A DNA stretch of 64,000 nt, from NCBI GenBank assembly GCA_001768325.1, contig MENQ01000025.1, forward strand, positions 79,519-143,518, in the 5' to 3' direction. This document shows, in pieces, positions 45,830 to 61,873 of the stretch. The DNA comes from Bacteroidetes bacterium GWC2_46_850 (GTDB lineage: Bacteria > Bacteroidota > Bacteroidia > Bacteroidales > Dysgonomonadaceae). The translations under genes and the position numbers were made by a program. Below the pieces are notes generated by a model. That model did no database searches. It was not told the origin of the DNA and worked only from the letters and a program-made list of their open reading frames with translations. Numbering within the stretch: position 1 is the first letter of the stretch; each line of letters starts with the position of its first letter.

Positions 45830-46489
45830 CTATTCAGCATCTTCCTTCTTTACATCCTCAGCAGGTGCTTCTTCAACGGGTGTTTCAGCCTTTACTTCTT
45901 CTGCGGGTGTTTCTTCAACCGGAGCCTCGGCTTTTTCTGCCGCTACAGGTGCTTCTTCAACAGTTACTTCTTCTACAGGAGCCTCAACAGCTTCTTCCAC
46001 TTCAGCAGCGGGAGCATTGGCAGCCTGTTCTTCGGCCTTCTTCTTAGCCAAAGCCTCTGCACGAGTTTTGTTTACCTCCTTTTCAGCATCCAGTCTTGCT
46101 TTCTCTTCAGCGCGTTGCTTTTCAGCATCTTTGCTCTTGAGCGATTGTGTGGCCTGTTGTTTGTTGTTTTTCCAGGCTTCAAATCTTTTTTCAGCTTCCG
46201 CTTCGTCGAAAGCGCCTTTTGTGACACCGCCAAGCAGGTGCTTCTTCATCAGGACCCCTTCGTCCGATAAAATATTGCGAACGGTGTCTGAGGGCTGCGC
46301 CCCCGTTTGCAGCCAATACAAAGCTCTGTCGAAATCTAAAGTGATCGTAGCAGGATTCGTGTTCGGGTTGTATGAACCAATCCTTTCAATATACTTTCCA
46401 TCTCGTGGAGCTCTGCTATCTGCAACAATGATCTGGTAGAAAGGATAATTTTTGCGTCCCCTTCTTTGTAAACGTAATTTTGTTGCCAT
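45830..46489 (-). CDS. rpsP: 30S ribosomal protein S16 with long Ala/Glu-rich C-terminal extension
   Basis: '[42 protein letters not shown]' followed by ~100-aa charged tail. Confidence 0.95.
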
Positions 46490-46705: not shown

Positions 46706-47434
46706 ATGAGTATTCAATTGTATCTTTTTTTTGCCATCGGAGCATTCTGGTCATCATTTGTACTGTCCTTACTATTTCTTTTCACTACTGTCTCCAAGAT
46801 CCAACAACTGGAAAACTACAAATCAGCAAAACGAATGATGGCTTTTGCCTATTTACTGTTTTGTATCATTAGCCTCTATGAGATAATCATTAGACTAAGA
46901 GGAATAAATTTGCCCACCTTTAGAACATCTATTCTTATTTTTGCAACCTTCCAGCTTTATCTGTTTGCGCACGTCAACACCTCACTGATCGACTTACGGT
47001 ATCTTTCAACCAAAAAGTTACTCTATCATTTAATACCGGTAGCAATTTTATCGCTTTTGAATCTGGGATCTTACGGGGGACATTGGAAGGGCAATTACTC
47101 CAATATATTGTATTATAGCTTATTATTATTTTATACCATTTCTATTATATTTACTGTCATCATTTTTTTCAAGCATTATTGGAGTTACAAAAAGAAATTT
47201 AATAATTATTTTTCCGGAAATAATAGGGATCATTTACGGTGGGTTTATCATGCCAATATTTGCATATTAATGGCAAGCATTGCTGTGATTCTGTTTTGTA
47301 TATTTTCTGAAGAAGTAAACGTCATATTCCCTTCATTGGCCATTCCATTTTATACGTTTTATGCCATTCATTTTTTTAAATTATTCAAACATTTTCAAAT
47401 ACGTACAACCCATCGTCGCGGAAGCAACAAATAA
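46706..47434 (+). CDS. Membrane-sensor part of a 7TM-AraC family regulator (5' part, frame broken at T7)
   Basis: Multiple TM segments; coherent up to 'FYTFYAIHF', then junk tail 'KLFKHFQIRTTHRRGSNK'. Confidence 0.7.
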   Translation: MSIQLYLFFAIGAFWSSFVLSLLFLFTTVSKIQQLENYKSAKRMMAFAYLLFCIISLYEIIIRLRGINLPTFRTSILIFATFQLYLFAHVNTSLIDLRYLSTKKLLYHLIPVAILSLLNLGSYGGHWKGNYSNILYYSLLLFYTISIIFTVIIFFKHYWSYKKKFNNYFSGNNRDHLRWVYHANICILMASIAVILFCIFSEEVNVIFPSLAIPFYTFYAIHFFKLFKHFQIRTTHRRGSNK

Positions 47435-47783
47435 AAGTATAAGAGCCTCATCAATAACATTTTCACAAATAGAAAAATCCATCGGAGAATGGGAAAAAAA
47501 GAAGTTATATTTGAACCCCGACCTGACCATTGCGATTGTTGCATCGCAGATATCCACAAACAGGACGTATCTTTCCAGCTATCTGAATACATACCGACAA
47601 ATGACTTTCAATGAATGGATAAACAGACTACGCATTGAAGAAGCAAAAAATATCATCACAGCCAACAAACATGTAACATTGGATGATATTTGTGAAGAAA
47701 TAGGTTATGCTGACAAAAGTTATTTCAGCAAGTGTTTTCAACGATATACCGGAATGACCGTGAAGCAATGGAAGAGTATATGA
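47361..47783 (+). CDS. AraC-type HTH part of the same regulator (3' part)
   Basis: 'DLTIAIVASQISTNRTYLSSYLNTYRQMTFNEWINRLRIEEAKNII…ICEEIGYADKSYFSKCFQRYTGMTVKQWK'. Confidence 0.85.
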   Translation: MPFIFLNYSNIFKYVQPIVAEATNKSIRASSITFSQIEKSIGEWEKKKLYLNPDLTIAIVASQISTNRTYLSSYLNTYRQMTFNEWINRLRIEEAKNIITANKHVTLDDICEEIGYADKSYFSKCFQRYTGMTVKQWKSI

Positions 47784-48031: not shown

Positions 48032-49873
48032 ATGCGAATAAAGAAGCGGATATATTTTATAGACTACTTGAAATATCTGTTTTTTGCAGCAAGTCTCATT
48101 ATGATGGCGTGTCACCCGCATCATCCGAAGAAAGTATTGCAATCGCCCTTCCATCCGGAAAATTATTATGCTACCATTGACTCACTCGTAAAAAGTATTT
48201 CAGCAGATACGGTTGCTCTCGCGAATTATCTGGCACTGTCGGTTTCAACGGGTGATAAATATGCTGAAATGTGCGTTTATGACAAACTCGGCAGTTATTT
48301 CTTACGTACTTATTTATATCATAGAGCCATCGGGTATCATAAAGCTTATTTGGAAACGGCAGAATCATTAGGAAATATACTTTACCAAATCAGGGCATTG
48401 AATTGTCTGGCTTATGACTTCTCACAAATCAGAGCATATGACATCACTGCCGAGTACTTTTTCAAGGCGTTGGCACGAACAAATAAATGCGAAATCGAGA
48501 CACAAATAGAGTTAGAAAGAGAAAAAGTTAAAACACTGAATGGAATTGGAGAGATTTATTTATCTATAAACCAACCCAATGAGGCTAATATTTTTTTCCA
48601 GGATGCATTACAACTGGCGGTGGACGTTCGTAATCCTGAAGATATGGCCCAAACCCTGAAAAATATGGGAACAGTCTATGAATTGAATAAGCAGTATGAC
48701 TCAGCACATGCTTTATATCAGAAATCTTTGGAATATCATATTAAATCAAATTCAGTTTCAGGCTTAAACAATTGCTTTTGGCATATCGGCAATTTGTATA
48801 TGATTGAAGGTGATTATGAGAATGCTTTGGTATATCTTGAAAGTGCTCACGTTTCTCTTTTGCATACTTCAGATCGACTGAATAGGTTAAATGTAACAAT
48901 CTCACTGGGAGAGGTAAACATAAAAAAAGGGAACTATGCTCAAGCTGAAGTTTATTTACAAAATGCCCTCCGGGTTTCGAGTGATTTTTCCTTGTCCGAT
49001 TATTCGGAAAAAATCTATTTCCATTTATCCGACCTACACATGATGGAGGGGAAGCATGCATTGGCATTAAAAGAAAGGTCGCTCGGTGATGCATATGCAG
49101 TGATTTTCAATAACGAAATGAATTTGAGCAGAATCACAATGCACAGATTAAATTATGAAAAAGAAATGAAGGTAGATGAAATGAACATGCTGACCAGACA
49201 ATATCAAATAAAAGAAGAAAAAACACGAAAAGCACTTACTATCACGGTCATTTTTATCCTTATTCTTATTTTAGTTATTTATATCCTTATCCAGTACTTC
49301 GGACTCAAAAAGGGAAAAAACCAAAAAAACTTACAATTGGAGAAAACGAAATTCGAATTTTACACAAAAATTTCTCAGGAATTCATTATTCCTGTCAGTA
49401 TTCTTATCGGATTGTCGGAAAGATTGAAAAAAAATCTGCAGGATAACAACGCGGATCACGCGATTGAAATGGAGATGATATCCCGCCAGTCAGAGACTAT
49501 CTTCTCACTGATTAATGAAATGACCACCTTGAATAATTTACAGCAGAACAAGAAAGTGATCAATGCCAATATTATTTCTTATCTCAGAAATCTATATGAA
49601 TGTTTTGTTCCCATGGTAGAAACAAAACAAATTGATTATATTTTCAGTAGTAACGTGTCTGAAATCTATCTGGATTACATACCGGAATATATACGCGTGA
49701 TTATGCACAACTTATTAAATCATGCCGTCACATATTGCAAGGAATACACCAACATCACAGTCTCGATACATTGTGACAGGAAAAAAAACGTTACGCCATT
49801 GAAGTTATATACAACGGAACTAGCATCAATCAGGAAGGTCTTCTACATGTTTTTGATTTCGACTTTCTTATAA
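48032..49873 (+). CDS. TPR sensor with degenerate histidine-kinase domain (5' part of hybrid two-component regulator, frame broken at A8)
   Basis: TPR repeats, TM 'ALTITVIFILILILVIYILIQYFG', 'KFEFYTKISQEFIIPVSILIGLSERL' (H-box with Q); C-terminus after 'DRKKN' out of frame. Confidence 0.8.
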   Translation: MRIKKRIYFIDYLKYLFFAASLIMMACHPHHPKKVLQSPFHPENYYATIDSLVKSISADTVALANYLALSVSTGDKYAEMCVYDKLGSYFLRTYLYHRAIGYHKAYLETAESLGNILYQIRALNCLAYDFSQIRAYDITAEYFFKALARTNKCEIETQIELEREKVKTLNGIGEIYLSINQPNEANIFFQDALQLAVDVRNPEDMAQTLKNMGTVYELNKQYDSAHALYQKSLEYHIKSNSVSGLNNCFWHIGNLYMIEGDYENALVYLESAHVSLLHTSDRLNRLNVTISLGEVNIKKGNYAQAEVYLQNALRVSSDFSLSDYSEKIYFHLSDLHMMEGKHALALKERSLGDAYAVIFNNEMNLSRITMHRLNYEKEMKVDEMNMLTRQYQIKEEKTRKALTITVIFILILILVIYILIQYFGLKKGKNQKNLQLEKTKFEFYTKISQEFIIPVSILIGLSERLKKNLQDNNADHAIEMEMISRQSETIFSLINEMTTLNNLQQNKKVINANIISYLRNLYECFVPMVETKQIDYIFSSNVSEIYLDYIPEYIRVIMHNLLNHAVTYCKEYTNITVSIHCDRKKNVTPLKLYTTELASIRKVFYMFLISTFL

Positions 49874-49905
49874 AAAACAAAAAGTCGATTGAAAACGACT
49901 CGGAG

Positions 49906-50919
49906 GTGGGACTCATCATCACCAAACAACTAATAGAAAAAATGAACGGAACAATTGTTGTCAACAGTGATGGAATGAACAATACGGTTTTTACCGTGAG
50001 CCTCCCAATACGCCATGATAGCCATCCAGAAAGCCAGGAACCCATTTCAATAAGTAAACAAATAACCGGAAACCATTCACTTATCTCCAATAATTATCAA
50101 ATTGAAAACAGTGAAAAACCGGTTGTCCTGATTGTCGAAAAAAACAGAGACTTGTGTTGTTATCTCATCTCAATACTGAAAGACAAATATGCTCTTTTGA
50201 CGGAAATAAACGGCGAAAATGCGATTAAAACTGCCCAGGAAAAAATTCCTGACGTAATTATTTCTGACGTTACACTGCCCCTCCTGGATGGTTTTCAACT
50301 TTGTGAGAAATTAAAAAGCTCACTGGCAACAAATCACATACCAATCATTCTGCTTACATTGATGCATTCTAAAGAAGATCGGATCAAAGGAATTAAAAAT
50401 GGAGCTGATGCCTTTCTATCAAAACCAGTGTATGAAGAGGAGGTATTGGCTTTGATGGATCAGTTGCTCTCCACAAGAAAACAACTAAGAGAGAAATACA
50501 ATCCATTTATACGCACGAGTACCCATCGCGAAGAAAAAGACATCGATGGAAACAGTGCAAATATGGAATTCTTACAACGTGTTACAAATCTTATCTACAA
50601 AGAACTAACCAATACAGAAAACATCATTGAAAAGATATCCTCGGAGATTTGTCTCAGTTCTTCACAATTAAACCGAAAAATGAAAGCGATATCCGGTCTG
50701 ACCACGACAAATTATATTTTAAAAACAAGGCTGAATCAAGCGCAGAAACTTCTTATCCATACACATAAGCCTATCGGTGATATTGCAATGGAAAGTGGCT
50801 TTAATGACTTCGCCTATTTCTCACGCTCATTCAAGAAAGAGTTTGGAATGACTCCCACTACTTTCCAACGTATTCCCACTCGCAACAAATTAACAGACAC
50901 ATCTCAAAAATTTAATTGA
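49906..50919 (+). CDS. Rest of HATPase, receiver and AraC HTH (3' part of hybrid two-component regulator)
   Basis: 'GLIITKQLIEKMNGTIVV', receiver 'PDVIISDVTLPLLDGFQLCEKLK…LSKP', AraC 'IGDIAMESGFNDFAYFSRSFKKEFGMTPTTFQR'. Confidence 0.85.
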   Translation: MGLIITKQLIEKMNGTIVVNSDGMNNTVFTVSLPIRHDSHPESQEPISISKQITGNHSLISNNYQIENSEKPVVLIVEKNRDLCCYLISILKDKYALLTEINGENAIKTAQEKIPDVIISDVTLPLLDGFQLCEKLKSSLATNHIPIILLTLMHSKEDRIKGIKNGADAFLSKPVYEEEVLALMDQLLSTRKQLREKYNPFIRTSTHREEKDIDGNSANMEFLQRVTNLIYKELTNTENIIEKISSEICLSSSQLNRKMKAISGLTTTNYILKTRLNQAQKLLIHTHKPIGDIAMESGFNDFAYFSRSFKKEFGMTPTTFQRIPTRNKLTDTSQKFN

Positions 50920-51031: not shown

Positions 51032-51202
51032 ATAAAATAATTTGACTAAATAATAGGTTCATAATCAATAAATACGACCTTCACCTTGCTTATTAAATTA
51101 TAATTTAACCTTAGTTAAAGCCGTTTGAATGCAAAAAGTCGCATTTTCAGAACAAACCATGTGCGCTGCATCGTCCTAATTTTACAACAAAAAAAATATA
51201 CT

Positions 51203-51775
51203 ATGAAACAAATGTGGATGTTTTTTGGCTATTTTTTTTTCCTGGTATGTATGACCGCCAATTCACAGACTTTTGGAATAAAAACAAACATTCCTTACTG
51301 GGGTACATTAACCCCAAATATTGGAATAGAGGTTGCGCTAGGTAAAAAAACAACATTTGAGGTTATCGGCGGAATTAATCCATTCAACCTATCCGATAAC
51401 AAATATTTAAAACATTGGTTGATTCATACCGAATACCGATACTGGACGTGTGAAAAGTTCAACGGACATTTTTTCGGACTACATGGTCTGGCCGCACAAT
51501 ATAATGTAGGAGGATGGGATATTCCTTTCTGGCATTTAAAGAATCTGAAAGAGAATCGCTATCAGGGATATGCCTATGGGGGAGGTATCAGTTACGGCCA
51601 TCAGTGGCTCCTGAACAACCGATGGAATCTCGAATTGACATTGGGAGGCGGCTATGTGCGTTTCCAATATGAAAAGTTCCCATGTACCAAATGTGGCAGC
51701 TCACAGGGAAAGGGTGATAAAGATTACTTTGGTCCCACAAAAGGTGCTATTTCAATTATTTACATATTAAAATAA
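51203..51775 (+). CDS. DUF3575-like pilus-locus protein
   Basis: Signal peptide MKQMWMFFGYFFFLVCMTANSQ; 'FGIKTNIPYWGTLTPNIGIEVALGKKTTFEVIGGINPF'. Confidence 0.82.
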   Translation: MKQMWMFFGYFFFLVCMTANSQTFGIKTNIPYWGTLTPNIGIEVALGKKTTFEVIGGINPFNLSDNKYLKHWLIHTEYRYWTCEKFNGHFFGLHGLAAQYNVGGWDIPFWHLKNLKENRYQGYAYGGGISYGHQWLLNNRWNLELTLGGGYVRFQYEKFPCTKCGSSQGKGDKDYFGPTKGAISIIYILK

Positions 51776-51783
51776 AAAAAGCC

Positions 51784-53268
51784 ATGTCAACAAAAAGATT
51801 AAACCCTAAAATTATGGTGACTTCCTTCTTACTGGGTGTGGTCTACTGCACGCTACTGGTGGCTCAATCGCGGATTGCCGATGAGTCCATCGTGAAGCAG
51901 TCACAGATCAGCAAAAAAGGTGATCTCGTCTCTTTTGATATGGATTTAAATCTTCACCTCATAGAAATAGGTAAAAATGAGACCCTGATTATCACGCCAC
52001 TGCTACAGTCAAACTCAGAAATCGCTGTGATTGACAGTTTTCCTCCCTTAATTATAAACGGATCCATCAGGGACAAAGTGATGAATCGGCAAAATGCCCT
52101 AAACATACAAAACCATACAACCAATCTGGGTCCCCTAGAAACAATAAAAAAAGATCGTTATACACCACAAATATACAGTTATCATGCTACGCTTCCTTTC
52201 AAACAATGGATGCAGGATGCTTCACTCGTGCTGGTCAATGAGACAAGGGGGTGTGCCGATTGTGATATGGGAAGTGAAAGCAAGGTACTTTTCACACGTG
52301 TTTTTCACGAAAAGAAAATACCTCAATTTCAGTTAACTTACATTGAGCCAGAGCCAGAACCTGTGAAAGCGAGAAGTGAAAGGCACAGTGCCTCCTTCAA
52401 CTATCAGTTCGACCGGTATAATCTGGTGCGTGAATACAAAAATAATGCTGCAGAGTTAGACAAAGTGGCAAGAGTGGTCAGCGAGGTACAGGGCAACAAA
52501 GACCTTACCATCACCGAGCTGATCATAGAGGGATTTGCATCTCCCGAAGGCGGTTTTGAATACAACCACAATCTATCGGACAAAAGAGCCAATTCCTTTG
52601 CCGATTATCTGGCGGCAAAACATCGGGTCGATCGCAGGCAGATGAAACATATTTCTGGTGTGGGCGAAGACTGGATTGGTTTACGAAAGGCAGTGGAGAA
52701 CTCTCAAATAACACACAAACAGAAGATTATACAGATCATAGATTCCGTCTTTCCTCCTGACGCACGCGATGCAGAACTGATGAAACTATCGGGCGGGGAG
52801 ACCTATCAGCAGCTGCTGACCAGATTCTATCCTCCGCTGCGACGTACCGACTACATCATCGCCTACAGCGTGAGGGCTTTCTCTGTGGAAGAGGCCAAAG
52901 CGATATTGAAGAGCAACCCCCGGCTGTTGAGCCTTAACGAGATGTATCTGGTGGCAGAAACTTACCCGAAAGAGAGCAAAGAGTTCAAAGAGGTATTCGA
53001 TATTGCAGCAAGACTCTATCCCGATGATCCTATTGCCATCATCAACAGTGCAGCGACCAAGCTCGAAACCGGAAATTTTTCAGAGGCGCTTAAACAACTG
53101 GAAAAGGTGAAAGAGGATCCCAGGGCATGGAACAACATGGGTGTGGCCCATGCCAAGGAGGGCGATCTCAGGAAGGCAACAGAATTTTTTAAAAAAGCAG
53201 TAGATAAAGGCGATCTCACGGCAGCAGCCAACATAGATGAACTGAAAAAAGCAACAACGAATCAATAG
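51784..53268 (+). CDS. DUF3868/OmpA-like pilus-locus protein
   Basis: 'ELIIEGFASPEGGFEYNHNLSDKRANSFADYLAAKHRVDRRQMKHISGVGEDW' OmpA-like; C-terminal TPR. Confidence 0.82.
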   Translation: MSTKRLNPKIMVTSFLLGVVYCTLLVAQSRIADESIVKQSQISKKGDLVSFDMDLNLHLIEIGKNETLIITPLLQSNSEIAVIDSFPPLIINGSIRDKVMNRQNALNIQNHTTNLGPLETIKKDRYTPQIYSYHATLPFKQWMQDASLVLVNETRGCADCDMGSESKVLFTRVFHEKKIPQFQLTYIEPEPEPVKARSERHSASFNYQFDRYNLVREYKNNAAELDKVARVVSEVQGNKDLTITELIIEGFASPEGGFEYNHNLSDKRANSFADYLAAKHRVDRRQMKHISGVGEDWIGLRKAVENSQITHKQKIIQIIDSVFPPDARDAELMKLSGGETYQQLLTRFYPPLRRTDYIIAYSVRAFSVEEAKAILKSNPRLLSLNEMYLVAETYPKESKEFKEVFDIAARLYPDDPIAIINSAATKLETGNFSEALKQLEKVKEDPRAWNNMGVAHAKEGDLRKATEFFKKAVDKGDLTAAANIDELKKATTNQ

Positions 53269-53307: not shown

Positions 53308-54807
53308 ATGAAAATTTACAAATTGTTCTTTTTCGCAGCCATAGCCCTCGGCTTTATGGCTTGTAATGCTGACGATCAGCCAGCAGTGCCCCTGCATGAG
53401 ACTGACTCCTATGCCAGTATCACCGTGAAGTTCCCCGGAAAAGCTTCTACCAGGGCCTTGCCCGGCGACTACAATCAAAACGGTGTATGGACCGGCCGTG
53501 ATACGTTGGAAACAGTATCTGTTTTTTTGGTGAATACTTCAAAAGGAGTTGTCGACTACAACTCATTCACCAAAAGTGCATTCCAGGAAATTGATGTGAA
53601 CGGAATTCTCCATCCCAATCTGGCTCTGAAAGCAACTGCGGGCGAAGCAGTCAGGGCTTATGTGGTAATCAACGGGGAAGCTGGCATTCTCAATACCCTG
53701 AAGGCAACCTCCGCAGCCAATTTTCAGGCAGCATTCGCCGCAGTAGCACAAAAGATTGCTTCACAGGTAGCATGGCTGAACGCCAACGGAAAGGAAACCA
53801 TCATGATGACCAATGATGCCGACAGTTATCTGATCAATGTAACTTCAGGAGTGACCGAGGAGGAGGCGATGGCCGGAACGGGAAATCATGTACAGGTGCA
53901 AGTGGAACGGGTGGTATCACGTGCCTTTATGACAGTAACCCCCGAAGCTGCCAGCGGTGCTGGATGGCCGGTGAATGCAATAGTGGGCGGTGCAGAAACA
54001 CAGATTGCCAAGGTTACCGGTATTACCTACGCCGTGGGACAAAGCAACAAGGAGTTCTACATCATGAAGAAAACCAATTATGAAGTACCGGGAAATGTAT
54101 ACATGTTCCTGCCAACGAGTTATACCTACTGGACTACTTACAATGCGATGTTCGATTATACAGGGCTTGCTTCATTTACCCCTGTAACATCCTGGACTTA
54201 CGACATCGCCAATGTGGCTACCCAGCTCGCAGCCGAAACAACCAGTAAGTTTGTCCTTCCGGTAAACCATGTGGTGGGTGAAACCGATCTCGATGTAGCA
54301 AGAGATTTCTATAAAAAGGGCAATACCACCTATTTCGAGATACGTGCCACCTTTATGCCGCTACAGGTAGACGGAACAACTCCTACATTTACCACACCGA
54401 CCACAGTATTCTGGGGTGAGAACGACAAGAAATTCTACAGCACCCGTGCACTGGCAGTAGCTCAGGGACAGAAAGCCACTGAATTTACCAACGGAGTAAT
54501 GAAATATGTGCTCTGGCTGAATCCAAACAGCATGACTTCTACCGGAACTGATCCTAATCCAAAAATCTCTCCCACTGTACGCAACCAGGTCTATCATGCC
54601 CATATCGATGCCTTCCTGCGTATGGGATTGCCCAACAACCCACTGAATCCGGCTGATCCGGACAACGTAGACAATCCGGACAATCCGATCAACGTGGAAG
54701 ATCCGCTAAAAACCGATTTCACCTATCTTTCCGTGTCTGTGAAGGTATTGCCTTGGACCATACACAGCTACAGATATTCATTGACCGAACCGGGTACAAT
54801 GTATTGA
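53308..54807 (+). CDS. Mfa1/FimA-family major fimbrial subunit (type V pilin), lipoprotein
   Basis: 'AALALGFMAC'-type lipobox (MKIYKLFFFAAIALGFMACNADDQ), 'SYASITVKFPGKASTRALPGDYN', operon context. Confidence 0.82.
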   Translation: MKIYKLFFFAAIALGFMACNADDQPAVPLHETDSYASITVKFPGKASTRALPGDYNQNGVWTGRDTLETVSVFLVNTSKGVVDYNSFTKSAFQEIDVNGILHPNLALKATAGEAVRAYVVINGEAGILNTLKATSAANFQAAFAAVAQKIASQVAWLNANGKETIMMTNDADSYLINVTSGVTEEEAMAGTGNHVQVQVERVVSRAFMTVTPEAASGAGWPVNAIVGGAETQIAKVTGITYAVGQSNKEFYIMKKTNYEVPGNVYMFLPTSYTYWTTYNAMFDYTGLASFTPVTSWTYDIANVATQLAAETTSKFVLPVNHVVGETDLDVARDFYKKGNTTYFEIRATFMPLQVDGTTPTFTTPTTVFWGENDKKFYSTRALAVAQGQKATEFTNGVMKYVLWLNPNSMTSTGTDPNPKISPTVRNQVYHAHIDAFLRMGLPNNPLNPADPDNVDNPDNPINVEDPLKTDFTYLSVSVKVLPWTIHSYRYSLTEPGTMY

Positions 54808-54945: not shown

Positions 54946-54976
54946 CAAAGAACAAAAACTGATAAAATTGACAAAT

Positions 54977-55933
54977 ATGAAGAGAAATCTGCACAGCAGG
55001 ATAGTCGCCACACTTGTATCCGTCATCGGGGCATTCTTATTGGGTGGAGGTTGCGACTCAATGATATATGATGAAATGCTGGATTGCCCGCAAGGGGTTT
55101 ATCTCAAATTTTATACCAAAACTCCTTGCGATGTAGACACACTCTATCCGGCCGATATCAAAGATGCAAATATCTATGTATTTGATTCGGAAAATAAGTT
55201 TGTGGCGGAATACAAAGCGTCCAATGTAACTCTCTCGTCGGACTATGAGTTCCTTATTCCCATCTATCCTCATGGGACTTACTCTTTTGTGGCCTGGGCG
55301 GGCATTAACGAACATTATGGCCTGCAGAACCTGAAACAGGGATTAACCACAAAAGAGGAACTGCTTCTCAGTCTGAAACAAACTGACGGCATCGCTGACA
55401 ACCTGAATGGTACCACGCTCTATGTCGGCAACAGTGTGGATGTTTCACTGCCTGATCCGGAAAGCGTGCTGGGTGCCTACTATGCACATATTCCCCTTGG
55501 AATGACACGCTATACCAACCGCATAGAGGTGATTGTGGAAGGAATTGCCATACCTCAGAATTATCATGTGAATATAAACATGCGTAACGGCGATTATTCA
55601 ATGAAAGGAAATATCCTGTCTACAGGAGAATTATTGCAGTATCCAGCTGAATACACCTATGGCAATCGTGTTTTATCGGCCAAATTCACCACACTCAAGC
55701 TGGAAAACGGATATGATGACCGGATAATTCTCATGGGAAAGGATAATAAGATTATATATGACGAGGAATTGCTGGCAACACTGCTGCTGCAGGTCCCTGA
55801 TGTGAACCTGAATTGTGATCACGATTTTGTAATCCGGTTCAAGGTGCAAGAACAAACCTACGCGGTCACCGAAGTGTGGGTGAACGACTGGTTGATACAT
55901 AGCTATGACACGGGTGTCGAGTCGGATTATTAA
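54977..55933 (+). CDS. FimB/Mfa2-family fimbrial anchor subunit
   Basis: 'GGGCDSMIYDEMLDCPQGVYLKFYTKTPCDVDTLYPADIKDANIYVFDSENKFVAEY' typical Mfa2 N-terminus; start taken at MKRNLHSR. Confidence 0.88.
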   Translation: MKRNLHSRIVATLVSVIGAFLLGGGCDSMIYDEMLDCPQGVYLKFYTKTPCDVDTLYPADIKDANIYVFDSENKFVAEYKASNVTLSSDYEFLIPIYPHGTYSFVAWAGINEHYGLQNLKQGLTTKEELLLSLKQTDGIADNLNGTTLYVGNSVDVSLPDPESVLGAYYAHIPLGMTRYTNRIEVIVEGIAIPQNYHVNINMRNGDYSMKGNILSTGELLQYPAEYTYGNRVLSAKFTTLKLENGYDDRIILMGKDNKIIYDEELLATLLLQVPDVNLNCDHDFVIRFKVQEQTYAVTEVWVNDWLIHSYDTGVESDY

Positions 55934-55956: not shown

Positions 55957-57831
55957 ATGGATAATCGTATGAAACATTATGCAATATTGCTGATCTTTTT
56001 AATACAGATATGTACGGGTTGTATCAACGACATTCCCACGAATTGTGAGGAAACAGACCCCAATGCCACGTTTATGAGTTTCCGGTCATCACAAATCACA
56101 TTGCCCTCAAATTCAACAGAAGTAGAATCAATCACCATAGAATCGATACGCATCATGGTCTTCTCAAAAACAACCGGACTGATTGTTACCAACCAGTCAT
56201 TTTCGGTAGGAGATCTTTCTCAGGCTACGTATGATTCAAGTACAGAAGAGTGGAGCATAGACTTCTCCAGCATCGTTGTGGAAACCAAACCGGGTGAAAG
56301 TGTTGTCTATGTCGTGTTAAATGAAAACATCATGAGCGTGAGCGGACAGACACTGAACGGTGCCCTCAACATGATTGATAACCTGGCTGAAATGCAAACG
56401 CTGGCAAAAACCCCCCTTACTTATACCGTGCCATTGAAAGTAGTGTATGGTAACAATGGAAAACCCGTTGAACCTCCTTTCATTATGTCTACCTTCGATG
56501 AGTTTGACATCCCGGCGGGATATACGTACGATTCGCCCTGGCATGCCGACTTGCGAGGTCCCTCTGAGTCACAGAAAGGGTTTGAACTGGATCGTACCAT
56601 GGCGAAGGTAACCATCGATTCAATTTCCAGTTTTCCCATCTCAGGAGGTCCGCTTACAAATGACAGTCTCACCAGTTACATTTTTATCCTGAAAGTGGGA
56701 CTTGCCAATGTACCCACGCAGTACCTCTGGTCACCCAACCGTTTACAGACAACTCCTCCAACTCCCAATCCATACACGGTGCCGGTGCCTCCTTACACGG
56801 GTAGTTATCAGTATATCGATTTTGAGCTGGAAGATACGACCTTGGGTTATTACGACCGGAACTGGAACGGCAGCATACAAATGAAGATCGATGCGCAGGC
56901 GTATGAAGTACAGGAATTGAAAAATTCGCGGATATGGTATACTGGTCTTGGTAGTGGAGCAGGCTCCTATACATTGGATAAATTCAATCTAGATGCCAAT
57001 ATAGCCAGTAATTACAACAATGTAAGCAAATGGTGCTTTCTGAGTTCTTATCCCGATACAAACAACGATGGCATTGGCGATCCCTATCCCATTGACCTGA
57101 ATGCAGGAAATTTTCTCGCAATGGTCCAGTCAATGTATACCAATCCCGATCCAAATGACTATCTGCCTACCTGGTATGAGTTGATTGAACCGTATACCAT
57201 TGTTCCAAAAATGACAGCTGCCTACTGGTCGATCAAAGAAAAAAATATTTCCTATTACATACCGGAACACATACTGACAAATAAAACAGATCCGGCTCAA
57301 GCTACCAGGCTACATGTAAAAGCAGCCAAAGCATTCATTCCTGACACCATCTCCAAAGAGCAAAGCACACACATTACCTGGGAGAATGCCACCTGGGGTA
57401 ATTGGGTTTATGCCCTCACGCCGGGAGGGACTGAATTTTCCCTGGTAGGGGATGCCTTTAAAATCATGATGCGAACTATCTGGGATTATGAGCTGGATAC
57501 AATCCAGGTCAACAACATACCCACAGTCATTGTGCGTCATTACTGGCGCGGAGGTATTCGCTATCGTTATGGCGATGTAAAGGGCACACTCACAGGCTCC
57601 CAATTTCTAAATATTTTAAACAGCACAGATATCAAGGATTTTTATCTTCCATTACGCAATACCCCCGCAAATCCCGTAGATTACAATGTATACCGGAACC
57701 ACGAATACAAATTTTCGGTACATGCACTCGAACAGTGGATTCCCGTTGTACCATCCGGAACCTCCGGGACAAGAAATGCAACAGACAATGCAGAAGGAAG
57801 CAGCTTCATACTATGGTTAAACGACAGATAA
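55957..57831 (+). CDS. Mfa-type accessory/tip fimbrial lipoprotein
   Basis: 'LIQICTGCINDIPTNCEETDPNATFMSFRSSQITLPSNSTEVESITIESIRIMVFSKTTG' FimA/Mfa-like N-terminus; 624 aa; follows Mfa2. Confidence 0.75.
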   Translation: MDNRMKHYAILLIFLIQICTGCINDIPTNCEETDPNATFMSFRSSQITLPSNSTEVESITIESIRIMVFSKTTGLIVTNQSFSVGDLSQATYDSSTEEWSIDFSSIVVETKPGESVVYVVLNENIMSVSGQTLNGALNMIDNLAEMQTLAKTPLTYTVPLKVVYGNNGKPVEPPFIMSTFDEFDIPAGYTYDSPWHADLRGPSESQKGFELDRTMAKVTIDSISSFPISGGPLTNDSLTSYIFILKVGLANVPTQYLWSPNRLQTTPPTPNPYTVPVPPYTGSYQYIDFELEDTTLGYYDRNWNGSIQMKIDAQAYEVQELKNSRIWYTGLGSGAGSYTLDKFNLDANIASNYNNVSKWCFLSSYPDTNNDGIGDPYPIDLNAGNFLAMVQSMYTNPDPNDYLPTWYELIEPYTIVPKMTAAYWSIKEKNISYYIPEHILTNKTDPAQATRLHVKAAKAFIPDTISKEQSTHITWENATWGNWVYALTPGGTEFSLVGDAFKIMMRTIWDYELDTIQVNNIPTVIVRHYWRGGIRYRYGDVKGTLTGSQFLNILNSTDIKDFYLPLRNTPANPVDYNVYRNHEYKFSVHALEQWIPVVPSGTSGTRNATDNAEGSSFILWLNDR

Positions 57832-57841
57832 AGGATTTTGT

Positions 57842-58345
57842 ATGTATAAATCAGAATTTAATCACAGGATATCTTACCGATCCGGTATCCAAAGCGAATC
57901 GGGAATTTACGGAAATGTGAGGGAGTGTATTTTACTCTTCAAAAATGGTACACAAAAGGTTATTTCGAATGAGAACGAGAATGGAACGCTGACTGTAAAT
58001 ATTCTATGCCATCTGGCAAAAGAGAATAATTTCGTGGAGTCAGTCATAAATAACTATGATTATACGGATAGATTAGACGATCTTTCAGAAAAATGCGGAT
58101 TTAATTCAATAAAAACATTTACACGTCATTTTAAAAAGAATTTTAATGAAACACCCAAACAATGGATGCTGTCCATAAAAAAAGAAGCGTTGCTGGATTA
58201 TCTCAGAAACACCGACTATCCGTTAAAACAAATAGCAGCAGACCTGGGATTTTCCAATCTCTCACACCTGTCTGATTTCTGTTTGCAAAAAACAGGAAAG
58301 CGTCCCGATGAGCTTAGAAAAAAAATCATTGACAGAAGCGGTTAA
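57842..58345 (+). CDS. AraC-type HTH protein at end of pilus operon
   Basis: 'DRLDDLSEKCGFNSIKTFTRHFKKNFNETPKQWML…PLKQIAADLGFSNLSHLSDFCLQKTGKRPDELRK'. Confidence 0.82.
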   Translation: MYKSEFNHRISYRSGIQSESGIYGNVRECILLFKNGTQKVISNENENGTLTVNILCHLAKENNFVESVINNYDYTDRLDDLSEKCGFNSIKTFTRHFKKNFNETPKQWMLSIKKEALLDYLRNTDYPLKQIAADLGFSNLSHLSDFCLQKTGKRPDELRKKIIDRSG

Positions 58346-58405: not shown

Positions 58406-60040
58406 ATGGTATTGGTTGACGGATTAACCGTTGAGTTCGGTGGCACCACATTGTTTTCGGATATTTCTTTTGTCATAAACCCCAAAGATCGTATAGCCCT
58501 GATGGGTAAGAACGGTGCCGGGAAATCTACCTTGTTAAAGATTCTGGCCGGAGTACGGGAACCGACACGGGGAAGGGTTTCCAAACCCAGGGATTTCACC
58601 GTGGCATACCTGCCGCAACATCTGATGACTGAAGATGAACGAACCGTCTTCGAAGAAACAACTCAGGCTTTCTCACACATCCACCAGCTGGAAGAGGAGA
58701 TTGAACGTATCAACAATGAACTGACGCTACGTACCGACTATGAGTCGGACGCCTACATGCAACTCATTGAACAGGTAGCTGCATTGAGTGAAAAATTTTA
58801 CGGTATTGAAGAGATCAACTACGATGCCGCGGTAGAAAAGACGCTGCTGGGGTTAGGCTTTCAGCGGATCGACTTCAACCGGCCAACCGCTGAATTTAGC
58901 GGCGGCTGGCGCATGCGCATCGAACTGGCAAAAATCCTTCTGCAGGATCCCGATCTGATTTTGCTGGATGAGCCCACCAATCACCTCGATATCGACTCGG
59001 TGGAATGGTTTGAAGATTTTCTCATCAACAGTGCCAAAGCAGTCGTCGTTATTTCTCACGACCGGGCTTTTGTGGACAACATCACCAACCGCACCATTGA
59101 GGTGACCATGGGGCGCATTTATGACTACAAGGCCACCTACTCACACTATCTGACGTTGCGTGAAGAGCGCCGCGAGCAACAACAAAAGCAGTACGACGAC
59201 CAGCAGAAGATGATCACCGAGACCAGGGAGTTTATCGAACGGTTTAAAGGTACCTACTCGAAGACGCTACAGGTGCAGTCGCGGGTAAAAATGCTGGAGA
59301 AACTGGAACTGGTGGAGGTAGATGAGGTAGACCGGTCGGCATTGAAACTCCGATTTCCACCGGCCCCCCGTTCGGGCAGCTACCCCGTAATAGCCGAAGA
59401 TGTAAGCAAATCGTATGAAGAAAAACTGGTTTTCAATAATGTAAGTTTCACCATCGAACGGGGTGAGAAGGTGGCCTTTGTCGGCCGCAACGGCGAGGGG
59501 AAATCCACGCTGGTAAAATGTATTCTGGGCGAAACGGGCTTCGGCGGTGCCCTGCAGCTGGGTCACAATGTTCAGATCGGATATTTTGCACAAAACCAGG
59601 CATCGCTGCTCGATGAAGAGCTGACCGTTTTTCAAACCATCGACGACATCGCCGTGGGCGATATCCGCACGAAGATCCGTGACATCCTGGGTGCGTTCAT
59701 GTTTGGCCGGGAAGAGATCGACAAGAAGGTGAAAGTCCTTTCGGGAGGTGAACGCACACGGCTGGCCATGATCAAGCTGCTGCTCGAGCCGGTAAACCTG
59801 CTTATTCTGGATGAGCCGACAAACCACCTCGATCTGAAAACCAAGGATATCCTGAAACAGGCAATGATCGATTTCGACGGAACACTCATCGTGGTGTCAC
59901 ACGACCGTGATTTTCTAAATGGCCTGACAGAGAAAGTGTATGAATTCGGTAACCAGAAAGTGACCGAACACCTCGAAGACATCTACGGCTTCCTGGCCAG
60001 AAAGAAAATGGAAAACCTGCGAGAGATAGAACGGAAATAA
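58406..60040 (+). CDS. ABC-F family ATPase
   Basis: Two ABC domains 'GKNGAGKSTLLKILAG' and 'GRNGEGKSTLVKCILG', linker, no TM; promoter-like TATCTTTG at 58375. Confidence 0.93.
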   Translation: MVLVDGLTVEFGGTTLFSDISFVINPKDRIALMGKNGAGKSTLLKILAGVREPTRGRVSKPRDFTVAYLPQHLMTEDERTVFEETTQAFSHIHQLEEEIERINNELTLRTDYESDAYMQLIEQVAALSEKFYGIEEINYDAAVEKTLLGLGFQRIDFNRPTAEFSGGWRMRIELAKILLQDPDLILLDEPTNHLDIDSVEWFEDFLINSAKAVVVISHDRAFVDNITNRTIEVTMGRIYDYKATYSHYLTLREERREQQQKQYDDQQKMITETREFIERFKGTYSKTLQVQSRVKMLEKLELVEVDEVDRSALKLRFPPAPRSGSYPVIAEDVSKSYEEKLVFNNVSFTIERGEKVAFVGRNGEGKSTLVKCILGETGFGGALQLGHNVQIGYFAQNQASLLDEELTVFQTIDDIAVGDIRTKIRDILGAFMFGREEIDKKVKVLSGGERTRLAMIKLLLEPVNLLILDEPTNHLDLKTKDILKQAMIDFDGTLIVVSHDRDFLNGLTEKVYEFGNQKVTEHLEDIYGFLARKKMENLREIERK

Positions 60041-60454: not shown

Positions 60455-61873
60455 TCAATACCTGTAATGCTCCGGCTTGTAGGGCCCATCCACCGGTACA
60501 CCGATATAATCGGCCTGATTCCGTGTAAGGGTTGTCAGTTTCACACCTATCTGTTCCAGATGCAACCGGGCCACTTCTTCATCCAGCTGCTTCGGCAGGC
60601 GATACACGCCAACCTCATAATCATGTTGCCAAAGGTCGATTTGCGCCAGTGTCTGGTTGGAGAAAGAGTTGCTCATCACAAAGGAGGGGTGCCCCGTGGC
60701 ACATCCAAGGTTCACCAGGCGTCCTTCGGCGAGGAGGAATAGAGAATTGCCGGCAGGAAAAGTATACTTGTCCACCTGTGGTTTGATATTCAGATGAGTG
60801 ATTCCAGGGAAATTTACCAGTTTATCCACCTGTATCTCGTTGTCGAAATGACCGATGTTGCAGACGATGGCCTGATCCTTCATCTGCTGCAAATGTTCAA
60901 TGGTCACCACATCGCGGTTTCCGGTTGTGGTCACAAAGATATTGCCCTCTTTCACCGCTTCCTCCATGGTGGTCACCTGAAATCCTTCCATCGCAGCCTG
61001 CAGGGCGCAAATGGGATCGATTTCCGTCACGATCACCCGAGCGCCATAGGAGCGCATCGATTTGGCACAACCCTTGCCCACGTCGCCGTAACCAAGCACC
61101 ACGACCACCTTGCCTGCAATCATCACATCGGTGGCCCTTTTGATGCCATCGGCGAGTGATTCACGGCAGCCGTAGAGGTTATCGAATTTCGACTTGGTGA
61201 CCGAGTCGTTTACATTGATCGCCGGTACAAGCAACTCACCCCGCTCCATCATCTGGTAGAGACGGTGAACACCTGTGGTAGTCTCCTCAGAGATACCCTT
61301 CATCTCAGCAATGGTTCTGTGCCAACGTTGTCCGTCCTCTTTCAGGATACGATGCAGTGTATCAAGGATCACCTGTTCCTCGTGGTTCGATCCCTTCCTG
61401 TCTATCGTAGAAGCATCGTTTTCGGCCATATAACCCATATGCACAAGCAGGGAGGCATCGCCTCCATCATCCACAATGAGGTTGGGTCCCTTACCGCCGG
61501 GAAAACGGAGCGCCATCTCGGTGCACCACCAATACTCCTCCAGCGACTCACCCTTCCAGGCGTACACAGGTACGCCGGCAGCAGCGATGGCGGCGGCAGC
61601 ATGATCCTGTGTGGAGAAAATGTTACAGCTGGCCCAGCGCACGTCGGCACCCAGCTCCACCAGAGTCTCTATCAGCACAGCCGTCTGAATGGTCATGTGG
61701 AGTGAGCCCATCACCCGGGCACCTTTCAGCGGTTTCTCCGTGGCATACTTTTTCCGTATGGCCATCAATCCGGGCATCTCATGCTCGGCAATGTCGATCT
61801 CTTTTCTTCCAAAACTGGCCAGACTGATGTCAGCCACCTTATACGGAAGATCGGAGGGAAAATTATTGTTCAT
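60455..61873 (-). CDS. ahcY: Adenosylhomocysteinase
   Basis: '[32 protein letters not shown]', '[21 protein letters not shown]', C-terminal 'KPEHYRY'. Confidence 0.96.

Follow-up and report, generated by a model that had tools for sequence, protein, structure and literature searches.

A TPR/pseudokinase/receiver/AraC regulator gene upstream of an Mfa1-type fimbrial operon, probably broken by a recent one-base change in a run of adenines

The gene of a TPR/pseudokinase/receiver/AraC regulator, located upstream of an Mfa1-type fimbrial operon, is split between two reading frames at a tract of eight adenines (A8), and a recent one-base insertion or deletion in this run is the probable cause. The split was analysed in a window (the whole stretch of 64,000 nucleotides of contig MENQ01000025.1, in which positions are given unless a relative's locus is named). 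The genome comprises 3.75 Mb in 32 contigs and belongs to a genus that includes Proteiniphilum acetatigenes DSM 18083 and MAGs named Proteiniphilum or Fermentimonas. The gene has the features of a recent pseudogene: the frame is intact in relatives, there is a single lesion and the remainder is coding.

The 5′ piece of the broken regulator (48032–49873, + strand) starts at ATG 48032 and is terminated by TAA at 49871–49873. Its 613 aa product consists of an N-terminal hydrophobic segment, TPRs, a transmembrane helix, a degenerate DHp and the start of a HATPase, followed by 28 off-frame codons past the A-run. The A8 tract, the site of frame loss, occupies 49781–49788 (+ strand), and the DNA around the junction reads GACAGG-AAAAAAAA-CGTTACGCC. 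Together with C49789 the tract reads AAA AAA AAC (49781–49789) in the frame of the ATG, so that the heptamer A_AAA_AAC stands in the zero frame, just as the preliminary description of this DNA had stated. The shifted frame is uninterrupted from 49777 to 50919 (+ strand; 380 codons, no stop), includes RYAIEVIYNGTSINQEG... and encodes the remainder of the HATPase-like domain, the receiver and the AraC-type HTH. Since both frames are open over only 97 nt, the break must sit inside that overlap, in which A8 is the longest run. Another in-frame A8 of the same gene (49427–49434) is unbroken.

Joined, the two pieces form a 962 aa protein with TPRs, a transmembrane helix, a HATPase-like domain, a receiver and an AraC HTH. 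A Pfam search of the joined protein yields Response_reg (2.5e-19), HTH_18 (3.9e-21) and HATPase_c (E = 3e-13), the last at residues 554–661, across the junction; Pfam finds HATPase_c in neither piece alone. The TPR, kinase-like, receiver and AraC architecture proposed earlier is thus right, and the missing HATPase segment is indeed encoded in the shifted frame. The 48032 ORF and the shifted frame had also been proposed to constitute one gene, and single-frame relatives of 957–1001 codons align across the junction. Alignment to full-length homologues, suggested in the preliminary description as a check, shows one frame through the junction, so two natural genes meeting there are ruled out. A putative separate receiver–AraC protein could be initiated at an internal ATG (49942–50919, + strand), which has a good A-rich start context; the sequence ahead of it outscores 64% of the training starts and 99% of all ATGs. 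For the GTG listed as a start at 49906 the score is poor.

The loci of relatives were found by a profile scan of contigs using an alignment of the 3′ piece; a contig scan using the 5′ piece gave no matches. The nearest genes are about 43–47% identical over the protein and have one open frame. Single-frame relatives include those in genomes G018 (968 codons), G008 (962) and G013 (994); in G036 and G011 the gene is truncated by contig ends. At the junction site the aligned single-frame relatives have neither an A-run of this kind nor a split; their codons there are, for example, GAG GAC AGA, AAT AAA AAA or GAT GAG AAG. In a tree built from the receiver and HTH, the window gene groups with those of G008 and G004 (support 99/97) inside a supported clade of 17 rows, and the rows with named families are Dysgonomonadaceae or Porphyromonadaceae. 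Identity to the compared relatives is 71–78% in the HTH, and the 3′ part is 48–54% identical to HTCS-type relatives. In the measurable pairs dN/dS is lowest in the receiver and HTH, a rough estimate because most dS values are high; for the window gene and its nearest relative it is saturated. In the relative-rate comparison past the break, the window gene and its sister do not differ significantly in the number of changes private to each; before the break, chi2 is 4.65 with one of the three outgroups, the window gene having the larger number. The downstream piece is without signs of long decay. Two other split genes proved not to share the break: that of G007 (L034) has a different frameshift further downstream, and that of G030 (L036) is split at assembly Ns. 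Separately, the relatives at L075:397–2754 and L076:80–2476 have a TPR region shorter by about 200 residues and Asn in place of the phospho-acceptor His.

The kinase core is, judging from its motifs, already degenerate before the frame break. In the H-box (ISQEF), Gln replaces the phospho-acceptor His, and the sister gene of G008 has Gln too; the state of this position has changed at least four times on the tree. In the N-box (NLLNHA), His replaces Asn. The G1 box (YNGTS) lacks the G1 Asp of DxGxG, and the G2 region is SEVGL, not GxG. The receiver retains its phospho-Asp (IISDV) and the conserved Lys (FLSKPV). In the genes of G015 (L032:2813–5251) and G022 (L033:2400–4838), each of 813 codons, the HATPase has been lost in frame with the receiver and HTH retained. 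Given the degenerate motifs and these in-frame losses in the clade, the break falls in a poorly constrained region of the protein. The regulator may work without phosphotransfer; in P. gingivalis, phosphorylation does not significantly alter how FimR binds the mfa1 promoter (PMC1974823).

The neighbouring gene upstream, encoding a seven-helix membrane (7TM) AraC regulator, is also broken. Its 5′ piece (46706–47434, + strand) and its 3′ piece with the AraC HTH (47361–47783, + strand) meet at a T7 tract (47371–47377, + strand), the site of frame loss; relatives are uninterrupted. In four relatives the gene is in a single frame, which reads YAIHFLDY or YAVHFLNY and then xNIF at the junction. In the window, YAIHF stands in one frame and FLNYSNIF in another, and the two meet at T7. 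The T7 break is independent of the A8 break and opposite in sign.

Downstream of the split regulator, the structural genes of the fimbrial operon are intact. The operon (all genes on the + strand) begins with an intact DUF3575 gene (51125–51775), followed by an intact DUF3868/OmpA-like/TPR gene (51784–53268). Next are the intact gene of an Mfa1-family major fimbrillin (53308–54807; NF038041, 311 bits against a cut-off of 130) and that of an Mfa2-family anchor protein, likewise intact (54968–55933; Pfam Mfa2, 4.1e-39). A FimA-like minor fimbrillin (55957–57831) is assigned on a weak Pfam match slightly below the cut-off. At the operon end is an intact gene for a small AraC-HTH protein (57842–58345), and genes of similar size are found at the same place in relatives. 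An Mfa1-family shaft gene followed by an Mfa2-type anchor gene defines a locus of the Mfa1 type, and this arrangement is present here. The gene order is thus 7TM-AraC, split regulator, DUF3575, DUF3868/OmpA-like, Mfa1 fimbrillin, Mfa2 anchor, FimA-like and small AraC. Short AraC proteins with a hydrophobic N-terminus, without the TPR and kinase parts and with an HTH 57–72% identical to that of the split regulator, are encoded at L094:5510–6325 and L096:4668–5339.

The split regulator is situated between rpsP (45830–46489) and ahcY (60455–61873). Both flanks are common to G008, and the ahcY side is also found in G018, G015 and G011, as read from N-terminal sequences. The content of the site varies: G008 (L038:1650–8446) has two regulators at the rpsP–ahcY site and no fimbrial operon there, only a DUF3575 remnant of the operon is left at the site in G015, and G018 has an extra TPR-AraC regulator ahead of the locus. 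No TPR-AraC regulator is present between rpsP and 46706 in the window. A gene for an ABC-F ribosomal-protection-like ATPase (58406–60040) lies between the fimbrial operon and ahcY and is absent from this place in G018. The rpsP product, ribosomal protein S16 (219 aa), has a long Ala/Glu/Val-rich C-terminal extension; its Pfam domain covers residues 9–67.

Other genes of the 17-row clade carry lesions of their own. In L088, a close relative of L091, a deletion with a frameshift lies in the receiver. In Petrimonas sp. IBARAKI (L091:5777–8253), about 2.5 kb of inserted DNA carrying two ORFs separates the receiver from the HTH; we take its layout to be IS21-like from the sizes and sequence of these ORFs. 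Fimbrial regulators appear to be lost repeatedly.

The preliminary description had listed five explanations of the split without ranking them and had stressed the heptamer. A genuine indel is the best supported of these, because the adjacent regulator has lost its frame in a homopolymer of its own and related genes show other kinds of breakage or shortening. If A8, T7 or both had been misread or misassembled and both genes were intact in the living cell, the picture would be the same: a singleton lesion in a homopolymer, homology throughout and a well-preserved 3′ piece. According to a genome-wide survey, singleton frame transitions with good homologues are expected to be mostly sequencing errors (PMC3711429), which counts against a genuine indel, and for this reason error, although unlikely, retains a small part of the probability. 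However, all 56 SusC-family genes of the genome are full length (56/56, about 170 kb of coding DNA), and no frameshift comparable to the A8 and T7 breaks was detected by paralogue-based and geometric scans at 296 A/T tracts of at least 7 in 400 kb, so that two errors within 2.5 kb would be a coincidence. This sample is one contig, and the paralogue scan detects only genes with relatives in the sample; it limits the error explanation but does not abolish it. Contingency (phase) switching, in which replication slippage frequently alters the length of A8 and T7 and both fimbrial regulators are switched off in the sequenced clone, is also unlikely. Both breaks are in homopolymers, the two adjoining regulators belong to a surface structure, as genes subject to switching typically do, and the 3′ pieces are undecayed, but runs of 7–8 nt are short for phase variation and the A-run is missing at the site in the aligned relatives. 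Moreover, the long ORFs of the sample (372 kb of the 400 kb) contain 41 A-runs and 17 T-runs of at least 8, and the 41 A-runs show no apparent switching. It is doubtful that the proportion of full-length regulator to membrane stub and free receiver–AraC protein is governed by length changes of A8 and T7, or by slippage on them, as a two-switch control of the fimbriae.

Through transcriptional slippage on A8, some mRNA could acquire a different number of adenines and give a little full-length protein, so that the broken gene would be leakily rescued. Cases with A8–A9 have been reported or suggested in some bacteria (PMC1088944), and an A11 run in tssM1 of Citrobacter rodentium gives about 20% rescue of that gene (PMC4256274). 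Nevertheless, A8 is near the lower limit of run length and the run is not conserved in relatives; at the further in-frame A8 of the same gene, slippage could only lose product. This explanation is quite improbable. Most improbable is programmed −1 ribosomal frameshifting at A_AAA_AAC, which would yield the short and the fused product on purpose. An in-frame heptamer is present, the −1 frame runs into the homologous domain, and one insertion-sequence cluster has been proven to shift at A_AAA_AAC without an established stimulator (PMC4066793). In the relatives, however, the fused protein is made without a shift site. Among folds free of pseudoknots, no notable RNA structure is predicted 3′ of the A-run (z = −0.65 and +0.56), which accords with the earlier remark that no strong stem-loop lies just downstream. 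The heptamer stands in frame at four places in the regulator gene (49315, 49324, 49783 and 50139), and 372 kb of ORFs elsewhere in the genome hold 35 copies; it is no commoner than expected by chance. Programmed frameshifting was rejected on these three grounds, the lack of conservation, the lack of structure and the heptamer frequency.

Under the preferred explanation, a genuine indel, the regulator has presumably lost its function and the break is presumably recent, although, with its undamaged 3′ reading, the allele could also be one that is even now subject to rescue or switching. Translation of the A8 allele would give a 613-residue membrane stub without the receiver and the DNA-binding domain, which is probably unable to act on DNA, and a free receiver–AraC protein may be initiated at ATG 49942. 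The position of the regulator and the analogy with FimS/FimR of Porphyromonas gingivalis suggest that it acts on the adjoining fimbrial operon. The signal input would then be cut off from the fimbrial promoter, and the operon without its normal input might be silent, constitutive or under the small AraC protein at its end. The local regulatory cassette would be decaying next to an intact structural operon.

The frameshift as such is of little general interest. The locus provides a probable natural example of a fimbrial regulator broken by a homopolymer indel, and the adjacent regulator has been hit as well. Attention is further drawn to TPR-type hybrid regulators of one clade, whose kinase core has repeatedly lost catalytic residues or the entire ATPase domain and whose receiver and DNA-binding parts are conserved. 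Phosphorylation-independent control of Bacteroidales fimbriae thereby becomes testable.

As in programmed −1 cassettes (insertion sequences, dnaX), an X_XXY_YYZ heptamer is in frame; unlike them, the regulator gene has no stimulator that could be found and no conservation of the site, and it is not a mobile element. The tssM1 gene of Citrobacter rodentium is likewise a broken gene with an A-run shortly ahead of the premature stop. It differs in having A11 and a measured rescue of about 20% (PMC4256274), whereas the regulator has only A8. Bacteroidales HTCS proteins combine a sensor region, a transmembrane helix, an HK-like core, a receiver and an AraC HTH in one chain, as do the relatives of the window gene. 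In the window this chain is split by the frameshift, so the single polypeptide found in relatives is lacking; the sensor here consists of TPR repeats. Of the catalytic features of HTCS, the H-box His, the N-box Asn, the G1 Asp and an intact G2 are absent, and the receiver Asp and Lys and the AraC HTH are present.

A further counterpart is FimS of Porphyromonas gingivalis, likewise a TPR-sensor kinase associated with fimbrial genes. Among NCBIfam models the 5′ piece matches FimS (NF053520) best, with 59.3 bits over residues 79–586, well below the cut-off of 600 bits. FimR, in contrast to the receiver–AraC part of the regulator gene, is a separate response regulator. In P. gingivalis W83, the FimS kinase domain is defective and no FimA is made (PMC5706477). 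That lesion affects the G3 box, with no A-run change described, and in this it differs from the A8 break; as a natural defect of a fimbrial regulator it is nonetheless a parallel case (PMC5706477).
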